DNA of 64,000 bases, taken from the NCBI GenBank assembly GCA_033065855.1, contig JAVXUO010001497.1, positions 1 through 64,000 on the forward strand, in the 5' to 3' direction. Below the pieces are notes generated by a model, which was not told the origin of the DNA, did no database searches, and saw nothing but the letters and a program-made list of their open reading frames with translations. Origin of the DNA: Escallonia rubra. Taxonomy: Eukaryota > Streptophyta > Magnoliopsida > Escalloniales > Escalloniaceae. The number at the start of each line of letters is the position of its first letter. Position 1 is the stretch's first letter. Below are positions 21,556-53,458 of this stretch, piece by piece. Position numbers and translations under genes: made by a program.

Positions 21556-21708
21556 CATACTTTCTTTGCTCTTCGAACCTGAAACAAAGCCCTGCTGCCC
21601 TTTATCCAACTAGGGTTTTTGGCAACCCCTGCAAACCACTTTTACTCGTTCCAGAAATCCTGACCCTGATTTTGGTTTTGTTGTAGTTTTGATATCCAGA
21701 AAGAAGAC

Positions 21709-22110
21709 ATGCAGCTGGTGACACAAGCACCGGGGATTCAGGTGGACGGCTGCGATCAGCCGGGGGCGACGAAGACGGAGACGGCGTACGAACGGATCCG
21801 CCGCCTGGCAGCGGGGAACGCGGTGGTGGTGTTCACCGCCGCCGGCTGCTGCATGTGCCACGTGGCGAAGCAGCTCCTGTTCGGCCTCGGGGTGGGCCCC
21901 ACCTTCGTGGAGCTCGACCGGGAGGCCGCCGGCCCCGAGATCCTCGCCGCGCTCTACGGCCTCACCGGGGACGCCCGGCACCAGCAGCAGCCGGTTCCGG
22001 CAGTGTTCGTCGGCGGCAAGTTCTTGGGCGGCGTCGAAACCCTGATGGCCTGCCACATCAACGGCACCCTCGTCCCTCTCCTCAAGGACGCCGGAGCTCT
22101 GTGGCTCTAA
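21709..22110 (+). CDS. CC-type (ROXY-class) glutaredoxin
   Basis: A 133-residue, intronless, GC-rich frame. It has a variable N-terminus (1-27), then the thioredoxin fold with active site CCMC at residues 47-50, the conserved cis-proline segment PVPAVFVGG (about 95-103) and the GGKFLGG glutathione-contact loop. It ends in ALWL, the C-terminal motif that CC-type glutaredoxins use to interact with TGA bZIP factors. This class is land-plant specific and acts in the nucleus and cytosol in flower development, jasmonate/salicylate crosstalk and nitrogen signalling. The strong GC content against AT-rich flanks is usual for this class. Long frames on the other two plus frames and on the minus strand are shadows of this GC-rich gene. 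Which paralogue it is cannot be told. Confidence 0.93.
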   Translation: MQLVTQAPGIQVDGCDQPGATKTETAYERIRRLAAGNAVVVFTAAGCCMCHVAKQLLFGLGVGPTFVELDREAAGPEILAALYGLTGDARHQQQPVPAVFVGGKFLGGVETLMACHINGTLVPLLKDAGALWL

Positions 22111-46730: not shown

Positions 46731-46767
<37 letters not shown>

Positions 46768-47060
46768 GGGGAAAGCGAATATAAGGCTAGCCTCACGCAA
46801 GTTGCATGAGGCTAGCGGCAAAAACTATGTAGTTTCGTTAAAAAAAAGAGCTCAGTATTGTGCTTTTTTTTTTTCCTGTTTTTCTGTCCCGTTGTTTCTC
46901 TCTCCCTTCCCCCTGTTTCCTCTCATCTCCTCCCCGTTTTCTATCGCAGCAGCCCACAGGCCCTACCAACCGCATCCACCATCAAAGCCGCCACAACCTT
47001 CCTGCGCCGGCGTCAACCTTCCTGCACCAGCCAACATCACGCCCACCAACACCCATCCTC
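46768..47060 (+). repeat. Left terminal inverted repeat of the Mutator-like element
   Basis: Begins GGGGAAAGCGAATATAAGGC and contains a subterminal hairpin: GCTAGCCTCACGCAA and its complement TTGCATGAGGCTAGC (one mismatch). A pyrimidine-rich part follows. The match to the complement of 52920-53208 is near perfect by eye. Confidence 0.9.
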
Positions 47061-47291
47061 CTGTCGCGACAGTGCGCCACCAACACCACAGACCAACGCC
47101 ACAGTTTCCCTCTCGTCTCCTCCCAGTTTTCTCTGTCGCAGGCCCTACCAACCGCAGCCACCATCAAAGCCTCTGCAACCTTCATGCGCCTGCGTCAACC
47201 TTCCTGCCCAGGCCAACATCACGCCCACCAACACCCATCCTCCTGCCGCGACAGTGCACCACCAACACCACAGACTAACGCCACAGTTTCC
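46920..47291 (+). repeat. Tandem duplication inside the left arm (about 188 bp unit)
   Basis: The segment from CTCTCATCTCCTCCC through CCCTACCAACCGCA, CATCACGCCCACCAACACCC and CACCACAGACCAACGCCAC occurs twice (about 46920-47107 and 47108-47291). The proline-rich frames on the plus strand come from this C-rich repeat and I do not call them genes. Confidence 0.8.
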
Positions 47292-47486
47292 CTCTCATCT
47301 CCTCCCACCGCAGCCACCCATCTTCCATCGCCGGTCACCGTAGACCAACAACCTTCCATCTCCGGCCATCATATATATCCATTCTTGCAGCAAACATTCT
47401 CTACCGCCCACTGCCTCCATAGTTTCCACTCCCCACGAGCAACCCACCGTGTAAGGTACGCGTAGAATCAAGCTAAGTTGTTATTA

Positions 47487-48445
47487 TCTGATGGGTACAT
47501 GGTGTATCAAGGACCCCGAGTGAAAGTTGTGGAGTTCTTTGAGTCGTTAAGTTTTCGGCTTCCCTGTTGCAGATTTTCTTCAAGAGGTTTTTATCATTTG
47601 ACGAGCTTTCTATCTCTTCCTCATTTAAATTGACCAGGCAAGGCCCAACTCGTTATGTTTCTAGGTTATATCAAAAAAGGATCAAGCACAATACTGGACG
47701 GACTCTTTAAAACCATATGCTTTCCTTCCTGTATCAAAAGTTGATGAAGCTTTTATAAATTCAAAATATGGAAGTTCTTTGAAGTCCTTTATTTCTGTTC
47801 CATATGATAAATGCAACAGTCATCCTTCTGCTTTATCTAGAACCAAGTTTGTTATATCAAAATGGGAGCCTTTTAGAACATGCTTTACCAGAGAATGGTT
47901 TCTGATTAACAAACACAGTTTTCTTTATATTTTCAGAACATGCCAGGTTAATTTTACGTTGCTATTTGATTCTTTTGATGCTTCTAGGTTAGGATTTCAT
48001 TTACCATATAATCATCTTTACTGATGTGCAGGATATCAAAATCTGTAATTCTAGGAGAATTTATAGCTATATGTAGTTGACTTGAATAGTTACATCTTGA
48101 TCAATTTCAACTATATATAGTTTTCGCAGTCACTTGATGGATGCATTCTGGATCTCTACTATTGCATGGAACTCATCATGTCTATGGCGTCTCTTATCAG
48201 TTTGATTTTTGCATATGGATACATGTAATACATTCCTTTTACGTATTGTACAGGTTGCCTTTGTCGGATCTGTCACATGCACAATGTTTTTACGAACAAG
48301 ACAAAATCATATAGATGCGATAAATGGCAACCTGTATCTTTCTTGTTTGTTTTTTGGACTGGTGCATATGATGTTCAATGGATTTTCTGAGCTACCTATT
48401 ACAATATTTCGATTACCAGTATTTTATGCTTATCTGGCTGATTTT
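47487..48445 (+). pseudogene. Captured fragment of a PDR-type (full-size ABCG) transporter
   Basis: Three exon-like pieces match, in order, the stretch between the first nucleotide-binding domain and the first membrane domain of plant PDR transporters. Piece 1 (47487-47600) reads [19 protein letters not shown], then, shifted, VADFLQEV. Piece 2 (47671-47946, 92 codons open) reads [39 protein letters not shown] and FLYIFRTCQ before a GT donor. Piece 3 (48254-48445) follows a CAG acceptor with VAFVGS, TMFLRTR and [19 protein letters not shown] then RLPVFY. Walker motifs and most membrane helices are absent and there is a frameshift, so it cannot transport. Introns are kept, so it was copied from genomic DNA. 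It lies just upstream of the transposase in the same orientation. Confidence 0.85.
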
Positions 48446-48492
48446 TGTAAGTTAATACTTACATGTTTTTTGTTGAACGCTTGTGTCGGCAG

Positions 48493-48560
48493 GTAACCCA
48501 GCAAAGTTCCTGAGAAAGCTAACTGATGAAGAAATAGCTTTCCTCTCCCAGTCAAGCCAG
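48493..48560 (+). pseudogene. Captured exon of a mitochondrial gamma carbonic anhydrase (complex I subunit)
   Basis: After a CAG acceptor the plus strand reads NPAKFLRKLTDEEIAFLSQS. In plant gamma carbonic anhydrases of mitochondrial complex I the C-terminal part has NPAKFLRKLTEEEIAFISQS. The match stops at the next codons (SQVQLHDS then TAG). Only this one exon is seen. It lies between the PDR fragment and the transposase start. Confidence 0.65.
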
Positions 48561-48570
48561 GTTCAATTAC

Positions 48571-51066
48571 ATGACTCATAGTAGAAGCACATCAATGGGT
48601 TCACACAGTTTTCAGTTGATTGAGGAAATTGATGCTGTTGAAGGTTTGACTGATTTTGATATTCTTGATACTCATGTCGGTGATGAACCTAGGGTAGATG
48701 ATGTTTATGATCTTTCACAATGTGATGACGAGGTTAGAACGCCTAGAGAAAATGAAGGTTATGAAAATTTTGACAATGATAGTCAACCGATAGATGGAAA
48801 AACATTTAATACGCTGGAAGCAGCATATGACTTCTACAATCGGTATGCTCTTTTAAATGGTTTCGGTACTCGCAAACACAATGCACATAAGATTAGGGCC
48901 ACGAGTGCAATTTTTAGGAGACAATTTGTGTGCAATAAGGAGGGCTTCAAGAAAGTGAATGACAAGAGACCGAATGTGAACGAAAAAAGGTGTAGGGACT
49001 TGAGAACCGGTTGTGAAGCGATGATGCAAGTTACATTGTCAAAGATGCTTGGAGTGTGGGTTGTCGACAAGTTTCAAGATGTTCATAACCATCCTCTCAC
49101 TACTACTCCATCAAAGGTAATCAAGCATCGTTCTCACAGTAAGTACCATCGTACAAACGTATGTAAGTCTCTAGTATCTGACCTTAACCATGAGGGCCTG
49201 AAAGCTTCTCAGATTACTAGGGTTGTGAATGTGATGAAGCCCAGCGAAGAAGCTGACGTAACTCCAAGACAATGTTCTAGTATTATACGCATCGAAAGAA
49301 AAAATAATGTGGGAAAAGAATGTTATGGAATTATTAAACATTTTCAAGAGAATGCCACGTTGGATGACAGTTATTATTTTGCTGTAGATTTAGCTATAGA
49401 TGGTTCTCTCAGAAGTGTTTTTTGGGCAGATGGAAGGTCAAGGGCATCATATGCACAGTTTGGTGATGTTATTGTATTTGATGTGACTTACATGACTAAC
49501 AAATTTAGGATGCCATTTGCTCTATTTGTTGGAGTAAACCACCACCGCCAGTCTATATTGTTTGGAGCTGCATTGTTGGAGGATGAGACAGAGACAACAT
49601 TTGTGTGGTTGTTTGAACATTTTTTGCGTTGCATGTTTGAGAGGCCACCAACTGCAATCATCACTGACTAGGATGGAGCAATGAGAAATGCAATTGCAAA
49701 AGTGTTTCCAAATACGCGACATCGTTTTTGTGCATGGCATATTAAGAAGCACGTCATGGAGCATCTACAACCTTTGCGATCCCGTTATGATGACTTTCAT
49801 GAAGCCCATAACAACTGGACAAAAAGTGAGACTGTTGAAGATTTTGAGGCCAGATGGGTGGATTTGAATGACAAGTATGACTTAAAAGAAAATTGGTGGA
49901 TTCAAAATATGTACAACATACGTGCACATTGGGCTAAGCCTTTTCTCAAAGATACTTTTTTTGCTGGCATGACCACGAGTGGACGAAGTGAAAGCATACA
50001 TTCATTTTTTGATGGGTATGTGAATTCTAATACTATGTTGAATGAGTTTGTTGTGAAATATGACAATGCAGTTTATAATCGAAGGTATGCCGAGGAAGAT
50101 GAAGATTTTAAGACAATGAATTCAAGAGCGGTCTTATCATCTGATCATCCAATTGAAGCAAGAGTCGGAGAATGCTATACTCGGAGCGTGTTTGAGATCT
50201 TCAAGAAAGAATGGAATGCTAGTGTTAGTTGTTCGCACATAACATTGAGTAAGGAGACCGACGTCACATGGTACAGGGTGGGTTTGATAACTGTTGATAA
50301 GGAAAAATGGCGAACAGTTCACTATTATTCGTCAGAAAATGTTAACGCTACTTGTTCATGTGCTAAGTTTGAGACGGCGGGAATATTATGCAAGCATATC
50401 ATTTATATATTGAAGAAAAAGAAAATAACTGATCTTCCTGAATATTACATTTTGCCCAGGTGGACAATTCATGCTCGATATAAGGTGGGAGATGTTGGTG
50501 ATCGAATGGACGAGATCGGTAGACATTCAACTGACAAAGGAGTAAGCTTTTTAACGTTGTGGTCTGTTCGAGCAAAGTTTTCAAAAGCGATAGATAATGG
50601 AAGAAATTGCCCTTCAGAAATACATGAGATTGATGCATGGCTTAGTAGCTTCTTAGAAAAGCAAGCAGCGAGAAACAACGTGGAGAAACTTGTTGGAGAC
50701 AAAATGGTTAGTCAAGTTGGTTCAAGTATATGCGTTTCTCAAACGGAAAGTATGCATCAGATTTCTATACGTGACCCTGCTGCCCCTATTAAGACCAAAG
50801 GACGCCCAAAGGTTGCTACTAGGTTGAAATCTTCTATTGAATTGGCGAAAGAAGAAAAGAAACAAAGAACTTGTGCATATTGTCATGGGAAAGGCCATTA
50901 CCGAACTGGTTGTGCTAAGCGAAAGGTATATTTTGAAATCAACTCCACATACTACTTTATTTTTCAATGTAATATTATGTTGTGTGAATCATTTGAGAGA
51001 TGTATACTAACTTATAAACGTGCATGATCTCAGAGAGATGAAGGAGAGGGCAATTTTGTTCAATAG
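48571..51066 (+). CDS. FAR1/MURA-type Mutator transposase, interrupted by an in-frame TAG
   Basis: Exon 1 is 48571-50925 and exon 2 is 51034-51066 (AAG|GTATAT donor, TCTCAG acceptor), 795 codons in all if the stop is counted through. Domains: acidic N-terminus (1-75); FAR1-type zinc finger with Cys, Cys and HNH (about 80-175); MULE DDE core with DVTYM (D304), TD-stop-DGA (D368) and GRSESIHSFF (E474); SWIM zinc finger CSC..CKH (595-609); and a zinc knuckle CX2CX4HX4C (768-781). Codon 367 is TAG (49669-49671) where the family has Gln (TDQD); CAG to TAG is a single change and the frame runs on intact. The host FHY3/FAR1 factors share this architecture, but the position inside terminal repeats argues for the transposon's own protein. 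ATG 48571 is the first in frame; the true start could be later. Confidence 0.85.
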
Positions 51067-51718
51067 CTGCAGATTTGCGTAAGATTTGGTTTAACGTTAT
51101 TATTTTCTGACGTTGTTCTTCCACTCTTCCTACTTCTTTGTTGACATAACTGATTACTCTTGTTTGTATGTAGGACCAGTGCAAGAAAGGAGTTTGATTA
51201 CATTATGAATAGGCGTTGTAGACATGCAAAGGCAATTGCCAGGGAATTATGTGGAGAGACCAAGTTTAGTTTTGGACTATTCATTGTTTTTTACTTTCTT
51301 GATTATGGATATTTGTTGCTTATTAAGAGTTGATGATTTGTTGAATCAAGAGTGTCAAGGATTAACTCTACACTGATTGGGGCTTTCTTAGCGTACAGAT
51401 TTACACAGTGTCTTGTTATTCAATATGGTTGCAGACATCTTTATAAAAAACATGTCCTAATTTTGACATTTTGGAGATGTGTTCAATACAATTTCAATTC
51501 GGATTTGCAAGGTCTATTCGTATCAATTATGTCTATTTTATAAGATTCACATTTTGGCACCTTCCTTTTTTTTTATCTTTTTATGAATACCGTTGCGTTT
51601 TATTTGGTAAAATCTGTAATCCTACTCATTACACTATAAGTAGAACTCACTCGTTCAAACTTCAAACAACAAACTGTTATTGCAATAGAAACAAAATTTT
51701 ATACAACATTTAAAGAAG
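51067..51718. other. 3' region of the transposase gene inside the element
   Basis: Contains a short open stretch TSARKEFDYIMNRRCRHAK after an AG near 51174, possibly a further 3' exon, and otherwise AT-rich DNA. No host-gene fragment recognised. Confidence 0.35.
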
Positions 51719-52300
51719 TTAATGCAAAATTTCGCTGTTAACATGGTCTGAAACTTCTTTAAATGACGTTACTGCTTGAACAAATGCAAGTTCAGCTTTG
51801 TCCAATTCTTTTCTTGCAAGTCTATTTCGACCCAATTCATTGCAAACCCATCCTTTCTTTTTAGCCACAGATTGCAGTTCCAAGGAACCAGTAGGCTGCC
51901 CGCCCAATGCTGTTCTAGCTTCTTCGTAACAGCTTAACGTAGTTGAGAGATTCAAATCAGCATCTTCAATCATCGAACCCCGAAGGTACTTGAATATACC
52001 ACCACTTTTTGCCTTCACTTCTCTCGGAGCAGTTACAGCAACTGTGAATTCTGGATTATACATTTCCATAGGACACTCAACTCTTAGGCTAGCTGCCCAG
52101 GACTTTTTGCCAGCATCAGTCCTTTTACCAAAAGTTTCTTCTAGGGGGTCAATTGTATTGTGCTTCAGGTATGCAAGTTCAGAGCTGGTTCCATCTTCCC
52201 CTTTCTGATGAACATGAAGCTCTTCAGGGTTTGCAAATTGCATAGGGGAAATGCCTTTGGCATATGTGTTATCGTCAATTTTATAAAAATTGACGGAAAC
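51719..52300 (-). pseudogene. Captured EDRF1-like exon
   Basis: After an AG acceptor at about 52301, the minus strand is open for 193 codons: VSVNFYKIDDNTYAKGISP, MQFANPEELHVHQKGED, SWAASLRVECP, GIFKYLRGSMIEDADLNLST then LSCYEEARTALGG, KKKGWVCNELGRNRLARKEL and FKEVSDHVN, then SEILH and a stop. This resembles the middle, TPR-containing part of plant erythroid-differentiation-related-factor-1-like proteins, where FKEVxDHTN is followed by a further exon. Here the match ends at that junction. The frame is intact, so a chimeric product is conceivable with the SEC6 exon upstream. Identification is from memory of the family. Confidence 0.65.
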
Positions 52301-52469
52301 CTTGCCACATCATTTTAGAATGTAGCGCTTTGATGTTGCAAGTCACATGTTTTTACGTTTCAATTGCAATTCCCTTAAAGCAAAAACACCAATCATCAGC
52401 TCAGAATCGGGGTTGGATATGCATAATTACATAAAACCAGAGATAGACGCAGTATCACAAAAAGCATAC

Positions 52470-52597
52470 CTGCTGGCGAGCAATGTAATCGCATTGATCG
52501 AAGCAATGGACTGTAAGAGCTCGGGAAGTGCTAACAGCTTCGCCACATCCCGAATCGCCGCCTCCTTAGCTTCGACGCCGAGATCTTCAACCATCAT
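52470..52597 (-). pseudogene. SEC6: Captured first exon of exocyst subunit SEC6, one-base deletion
   Basis: Starting at the ATG at 52597 the minus strand reads MMVEDLGVEAKEAAIRDVAK, LLALPELLQSIASI, then a GTATGC donor. Plant SEC6 begins MMVEDLGVEAKEAAVREVAK and continues LLPLPELLQSI.SIKADYIARQQ. Here the DNA after GCG reads ATTACATTGCTCGCCAGCAG, which lacks one G needed for ADYIARQQ, so the exon is 128 instead of 129 bases. It stands upstream of the EDRF1-like exon on the same strand, suggesting a chimeric transcription unit with the SEC6 start codon. Confidence 0.8.
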
Positions 52598-52919
52598 CTT
52601 GTATAAAGTTATAATCTACTCCAAGAAATCAATCTACTGTGCAGAACTGGAAACTTGAGCACCATGATTTGGCGGAAATGGCAGTGTTGTGGCGGTGATA
52701 GGTTTGACTGATTGTGGCTTTCATCTGTGGTGTTGGCGATGTACTGTCGCGGCAGGAGGATGGGTGTCGGTGGGAGTGATGTTGGCCGGTGCAGGACGGT
52801 TGACGGTAGCCGGCGAAGGAAGGTTGCGACAGGAATGGCTGTTTACGGCGGCGCCGACGGAAGGTTGGTGGTCTACGGTGGAAGGTTGGGGCCTTGATGG
52901 CGGTTAGCCTGTTACGGTT

Positions 52920-53208
52920 GCGGCAGGATGTTGGGGCGTGATGTTGGCTGGTGCAGGAAGGTTGACGCCGACGCAGGAAGGTTGTGGCGCCTTTCATGGT
53001 GGCTGCGGTTGGTAGGGCCTGCGGGCTGCAACAGAAAACGGGGAGGAGATGAGAGGAAACAGGGGAAAGGGAGAGAGAAACAACGGGACAGAAAAACAGG
53101 AAAAAAAAAGCACAATACTGAGCGCTTTTTTTTTTTAACGAAACTGCGTAGTTTTTGCCGCTAGCCTCACGCAAGTTGCGTGAGGCTAGCCTTATATTCG
53201 CTTTCCCC
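52920..53208 (-). repeat. Right terminal inverted repeat of the Mutator-like element
   Basis: The complement of the left arm, ending CGCTTTCCCC. Its subterminal hairpin is a perfect 15-base stem, GCTAGCCTCACGCAA and TTGCGTGAGGCTAGC, around a single G. More arm-related sequence (CATCACTCCCACCGACACCC on the minus strand) extends inwards to about 52680. Confidence 0.9.
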
Positions 53209-53212
<4 letters not shown>

Positions 53213-53242
<30 letters not shown>

Positions 53243-53319
53243 GATTCTTAAGATTTAATTGTTGAGAAATTCAATACTAAGTGTAATATTTATAAAATTT
53301 GACGTATATCCGCAGCACC

Positions 53320-53378
<59 letters not shown>

Positions 53379-53458
53379 GATTCGTAAGATTTAATTGTTG
53401 AGAAATTCAATACTAAGTGTTATATTTATAAAATTTGATGTATATCGGCAGCACCCGT
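53213..53458. repeat. Direct duplication with (AT)n tracts
   Basis: The segment ATGATTCTTAAGATTTAATT to GCAGCACCCG (53240-53322) recurs at 53376-53458 with a few changes. Both copies follow an AT microsatellite (53213-53240 and 53323-53375). Related words (GCACCCGTA, AAAATGCGGTATCCGCACC) recur near 54950-55010. Confidence 0.8.

Follow-up and report, generated by a model that had tools for sequence, protein, structure and literature searches.

Pack-MULEs, which are Mutator-like elements (MULEs) with fragments of host genes, are defined as lacking a transposase in the passages of the literature drawn upon here (PMC8903248, PMC4858842), and MULEs with long terminal inverted repeats (TIRs) have arms of 100–500 bp (PMC3903597). 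Transposase-bearing MULEs with captured host sequence have also been described, among them the ULP1 MULEs and grapevine families; cellulose-synthase sequence, both intronic and exonic, is contained in one Mutator family of grapevine (PMC2528002). Here, a stretch of 64,000 nucleotides of Escallonia rubra DNA (contig C49, positions 1–64000; hereafter the window) was analysed. Its positions 46768–53208 constitute one Mutator-like element of 6,441 bp, which is very probably, when all parts of this explanation are taken jointly, a defective member of a TIR-MULE family that combines fragments of four unrelated host genes with a transposase gene.

The element starts with GGGGAAAGCG at 46768 and ends with CGCTTTCCCC at 53208, exactly where the original prediction for this DNA had placed its borders. 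The arms of about 285 bp fall within the length range of long TIRs and are 91.7% alike over 290 alignment columns. Over the outermost 80 nt they are 95% complementary, and the predicted near-identity thus holds for this outer part but not for the whole arm. The same ends recur in dispersed copies across the genome, as expected of a TIR-MULE. The modules follow each other in the order left arm, PDR-type ABCG transporter piece, gamma carbonic anhydrase (gamma-CA) piece, transposase gene, EDRF1 piece, SEC6 piece and right arm; the first three after the left arm are on the plus strand, and the EDRF1 and SEC6 pieces are on the minus strand, reading inward from the right arm.

Domain and protein matches identified all four donors named in the prediction as well as the FAR1/MURA-type transposase in the same element. 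For the PDR piece, which keeps an intron at 47947–48253 (GT..AG, borders read from the sequence), the spliced join of the window translation matched TIGR00956 (E 1.5e-19), with the next family at 2.3e-8, the value obtained for PF01061; these scores come from translations of the window that were typed by hand and joined across the intron. Without splicing, the frames revealed no ABC family in Pfam, and neither these frames nor the spliced join had an ABC match in the PDB. The gamma-CA exon matched Arabidopsis CA1 (E 2.1e-7), and both splice borders (AG/GT, from the sequence) are present. In the transposase, the FAR1 (PF03101; E 1.4e-23), MULE (PF10551; E 9e-17) and SWIM (PF04434; E 2.1e-5) domains were found, and the few further families matching below their cut-offs were disregarded; the first named matches outside Escallonia were from Cichorium, Tanacetum and Lactuca at about 54–59%. 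At the amino acid level, the EDRF1 piece is about 91% identical to EDRF1 of Escallonia herrerae and the SEC6 piece 89% identical to SEC6 of this species over 36 residues, with no match of the SEC6 piece in the PDB. At a threshold of E 0.01, the full-length EDRF1 and SEC6 proteins had no other match across the 64 kb, and therefore neither piece belongs to a neighbouring gene, an origin that the prediction had named as refuting capture.

A genome search with positions 51700–52700 (assembly of 566,129,122 bases in 3,222 contigs) revealed nine places, namely seven copies of the element and two parent loci. The EDRF1 parent on C825 comprises 537 bp within one exon of a gene whose fetched stretch matches residues 73–1432 of E. 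herrerae EDRF1. The SEC6 parent on C1041 comprises 445 bp that run from the 5′ flank through exon 1 into intron 1, and the stretch fetched covers the gene up to residue 200. The window copy of EDRF1 is 97.0% identical to its parent over 531 aligned bases (95.9% counting gaps) and that of SEC6 89.7% over 418 aligned bases (83.1% counting gaps), with 95.2% in the exon, 88.8% in the intron and 84.8% in the 5′ flank. Homology to both parents ends sharply at each side, in keeping with the expectation that fragment ends coincide with homology ends, and the filler between the two pieces is 13 bp long in five of the seven copies, which are those with an exact anchor, C49 included. Because the intron and the 5′ flank are kept, the ends are sharp and the filler is present, we conclude that EDRF1 and SEC6 were copied at the DNA level, as had been predicted from the introns of the PDR and SEC6 pieces.

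In EDRF1, 10 substitutions and the loss of 6 parent bases are common to all seven copies. In SEC6, all seven share 38 substitutions, the loss of 27 bases, a 1-bp deletion in the exon among them, and the gain of 5. Since these changes are absent from the parents, the sequence comparison implies that each fragment was captured once, before the copies spread, and was then spread with the element. An older capture of SEC6 than of EDRF1 was hinted at by 11–15% noncoding versus 3% coding divergence, but the coding parts alone (exon 95.2% versus 97.0%) were indecisive and the idea was not retained.

The left arm matches at least 96 places in the genome. At least ten of the matches show 93% identity or more over at least 643 bp and are located at nine loci including the window's own; these counts are lower bounds, as 40 of 482 candidates were scored. 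The eight other loci, thus chosen by arm similarity, were compared with the window. All five internal modules were found at seven loci (C49, C1250, C1514, C982, C616, C203 and C1658; partial modules at two of them), which bears out the expectation that other copies would have these arms and fragments. The chain is rearranged or interrupted at three of the seven. C616 has about 8 kb inserted within the PDR piece and misses about 400 bp around 50905–51302, C1658 has about 8 kb inserted near 51675, and C203 is rearranged, with 868 of 2,497 transposase bases in the stretch examined. Deletion derivatives are present on C759 (1.06 kb) and C2261 (1.35 kb); in the latter (C2261:339939–341289), two left arms face each other around a short centre, making it palindromic. 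In nine more distant arm relatives, of which 2.8–3.5 kb each were examined, no internal module was found.

This distribution bears on the assembly itself. The E. rubra draft is a Nanopore assembly of 566 Mb in 3,233 contigs, a setting in which dispersed repeats are at risk, but its mean read length of 9.4 kb exceeds the element length (PMC10759652). The presence of the same modules on seven contigs argues strongly against misassembly, and 70 nt around the junction of the left arm with the PDR piece are identical in 7/7 copies. It is thus highly improbable that collapsed repeats joined the four gene pieces, and the misassembly of unrelated arms, considered in the prediction as a refutation, is countered by the same observations.

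Analysis of the transposase revealed damage in each of the six copies assessed. In the window copy, an in-frame TAG at 49669–49671, absent from the original prediction, lies inside the MULE domain. C1250 has lost 34 nt in two gaps and gained 1 nt, in and just past the FAR1 domain, with the DDE letters intact; C1514, C616 and C1658 contain frame shifts; C982 has an open frame of 785 codons. At the positions which we take to be the catalytic DDE residues, the first D is changed in C1514 (to E) and C616 (to G), and the second D is changed to N in C982 and C1658. An undamaged frame with intact DDE, by which an autonomous MULE is recognised, was found in 0/6 copies assessed, the window copy among them and C203 left out. 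The prediction of a self-mobile unit was not supported for the window copy. Premature stops are common in coding MULEs, as reported for 159/476 in rice and 173/530 in maize (PMC3903597).

Among 120 proteins listed, 14/15 E. rubra transposase gene models skip the catalytic core, versus 105/105 other proteins covering it. A family-wide stop or read-through was suspected from these gene models and rejected, as the TAG occurs in 0/5 other copies examined and C982 is open through the core; among the titles and abstracts met on read-through, none concerned plant transposases.

The copies are mosaic in the transposase. C1514 differs from C49 by about 1% in the PDR, EDRF1 and SEC6 pieces and by about 6% between approximately 49277 and 51737; the dense differences stop some 110 bp before the EDRF1 junction is reached. 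C616 differs from C49 by about 5% from about 48510 to 50165 and elsewhere, apart from the arms, mostly by about 1%. Judged from these alignments, transposase tracts were probably exchanged with more diverged relatives. In nine pairs with C1514 or C616, mosaic tracts included, dN/dS was 0.30–0.43, and in six pairs among C49, C1250, C982 and C1658 it was 0.46–0.72. Purifying selection on the transposase after capture, as read from the lower values, was withdrawn because these pairs include the mosaic tracts.

Whether the fragment-laden element was autonomous, or in an unsampled copy still is, so that its own transposase moved the element with its four gene pieces, has to be weighed against this damage. 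The open frame of C982, the ratios of 0.46–0.72 and the at least partial retention of the transposase in 7/7 copies are consistent with such autonomy, but stops, deletions, frame shifts or a changed catalytic D affect each of the six assessed copies, and we regard it as possible but rather doubtful.

To determine the insertion target, 36 termini from the window and 27 loci were examined, and a flank was scored as a TA run when TA/AT steps made up 80% or more of 12 bp. By this measure, 32/36 family termini abut (TA)n runs, compared with 0.57% when 20,000 positions were drawn at random from the window; where both ends of a single insertion were counted, they are not independent. Of the remaining four ends, two face each other across five bases and two score 0.73. 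We conclude that the family targets (TA)n microsatellites, an observation that is new in this analysis. On C616 and C2355, neighbouring family members lie together in one TA tract. TIR-MULE insertions are flanked by target site duplications of 9–11 bp. A target duplication as proof of transposition was dropped, the site being a TA repeat: since the family targets such microsatellites, duplications are unreadable, and the candidate 9-bp pair tatatatat/taaatatat (8/9 matching) inside the TA repeat is uninformative.

Adjacent insertion of family members in one (TA)n tract (C616, C2355) would also be the starting point of a composite, in which a transposase element and a Pack-MULE came to lie side by side in one microsatellite and were mobilised by the outer arms, a model published for Pack-TYPE elements (PMC8903248). 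However, no second pair of arms was detected within the 6.4 kb of the element, the gene fragments flank the transposase on both sides, and no half-element between its own arms was noticed among the loci fetched, which were chosen by arm similarity. Such an origin is unlikely.

For a single element that acquired its fragments by capture, gap repair with ectopic templates would be the origin of the captures, by the same route as the exchange of transposase tracts, and template switching during gap repair would account for both the mosaic tracts and the captures. By analogy, transcription of the transposase may be driven by the left arm, with PDR and gamma-CA in the leader, and the right arm may drive a convergent transcript that holds SEC6 and EDRF1. 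Recent copies would have moved mainly in trans, because none of the six assessed copies has an intact transposase.

Several points weigh against this account of a defective element with captured fragments. The promoter roles of the arms are assigned by analogy with MuDR. Parent loci were located for two of the four donors (EDRF1 and SEC6) by a search that covered positions 51700–52700, not for PDR or gamma-CA, and the prediction of parents outside the element is borne out to that extent. The mosaicism could also reflect homogenised flanking modules instead of exchanged transposase tracts, and on the dN/dS values, with or without the mosaic tracts, the transposase may or may not have worked after the captures. 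Finally, a 9-bp target duplication cannot be proved within TA repeats.

It was further considered that the captured pieces are in use. For instance, transcripts from the right arm or small RNAs could act against EDRF1 or SEC6, or the neighbouring NLR gene on C616 could have gained an exon. In the region C616:22445–42169, the annotated E. rubra protein RJ640_002548 joins a TIR-NB-ARC gene (C616:40863–42169) to the SEC6 piece of the copy there; this is probably a gene-model fusion and possibly a real chimeric transcript. The join is in line with use, but it bridges about 4.8 kb and could stem from faulty gene prediction, and the SEC6 piece is frame-shifted. The EDRF1 pieces, with one stop in C1514, are uninformative, as the ratios of 0.28–1.72 among copies derive from too few changes to judge. 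Use of the pieces is therefore considered improbable.

The features of the element are compiled in the table.

Table. Features of the Escallonia rubra element and its insertion site (window positions).
Feature	Position	Strand	Basis
Left (TA)n target	46750–46767		sequence
Left terminal inverted repeat, about 285 bp, begins GGGGAAAGCG	46768–47052	+	91.7% to 53208–52926
Left-side subterminal pair, direct repeats of 169–170 nt	46957–47307	+	92–93% alike
PDR-type ABCG fragment, degenerate	47480–48445	+	TIGR00956, PF01061; outer limits placed by eye
One exon of mitochondrial gamma carbonic anhydrase, 22 aa	48493–48560	+	PDB 7ar7_z, E 2.1e-7; AG/GT borders
FAR1-MULE-SWIM transposase gene; intron 50928–51034 inferred from sequence	48571–51067	+	Pfam domains
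EDRF1 fragment, within a single parent exon	51736–52266	-	97.0% identical to the C825 parent (531 aligned bases)
13-bp filler between EDRF1 and SEC6 pieces	52267–52279		homology ends
SEC6 fragment, with exon 1 (ATG at 52597) between the 5′ flank and part of intron 1	52280–52703	-	89.7% identical to the C1041 parent (418 aligned bases)
Right terminal inverted repeat, ends CGCTTTCCCC	52926–53208	-	arm alignment
Right (TA)n target	53209–53240		sequence

Directly to the right of the element, a 113-nt direct repeat (96%) of TA-repeat and flank occupies 53209–53457. Elsewhere in the window, an open frame at 21670–22110 resembles a CC-type (ROXY) glutaredoxin.

Compared with known systems, the transposase is akin to the Jittery/FAR1-type MULE transposases in having FAR1, MULE and, in part of the matches, SWIM domains. 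The insertion into (TA)n is shared with Micron of rice, a microsatellite-targeting element. The Pack-MULEs of rice, Arabidopsis, maize and Lotus are alike in their long arms, their host fragments with introns, the possibility of several donors and amplification after capture; they differ in having no transposase by definition, whereas the E. rubra element has a recognisable transposase gene and, despite its fragments of four donors, was not filed as a Pack-MULE. Survey rules move any element with a transposase match out of the gene-fragment class (packFinder, PMC8903248; genic-MULE survey, PMC4858842), and under both rules the E. rubra element would be classed by its transposase alone.

The family, with its fragments and transposase, two known parents, shared capture changes, mosaic tracts and TA targets, provides a clean system for studying capture and its compatibility with autonomy, and an intact fragment-bearing copy would raise its interest. 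Tentatively, and against the weight of our own expectation, the lineage could be an "autonomous Pack-MULE", in which a microsatellite-targeting MULE gathered four host pieces while its transposase worked and is repeatedly rebuilt by exchanging transposase tracts with relatives. If true, one element would mobilise itself and shuffle host exons, including into NLR gene neighbourhoods.

In the MULE and gene-capture literature, as far as the sources were covered, no MULE with four identified donors and a transposase was met. The predicted unusualness applies to this combination but not to the class, as transposase-bearing MULEs with host sequence are already described (PMC2528002). The Abermu MULEs are alike in having a transposase and an extra reverse open reading frame (ORF) possibly from the host, the spread of which their authors note as possible; they differ in that the donor of the ORF is unknown and the three target duplications visible in the source are not TA repeats (PMC9168764). 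The ULP1/KAONASHI and grapevine cellulose-synthase MULEs are likewise transposase families with host-derived DNA, although for the cellulose-synthase family the source section does not spell out a transposase in each copy, nor does it contain a statement on TA-repeat targets for either group; they differ in having one donor or a conserved ULP domain, versus four donors here (PMC2528002). Four donors and a transposase amplified as one unit thus constitute a variant of the transposase-bearing MULEs with captured host sequence.

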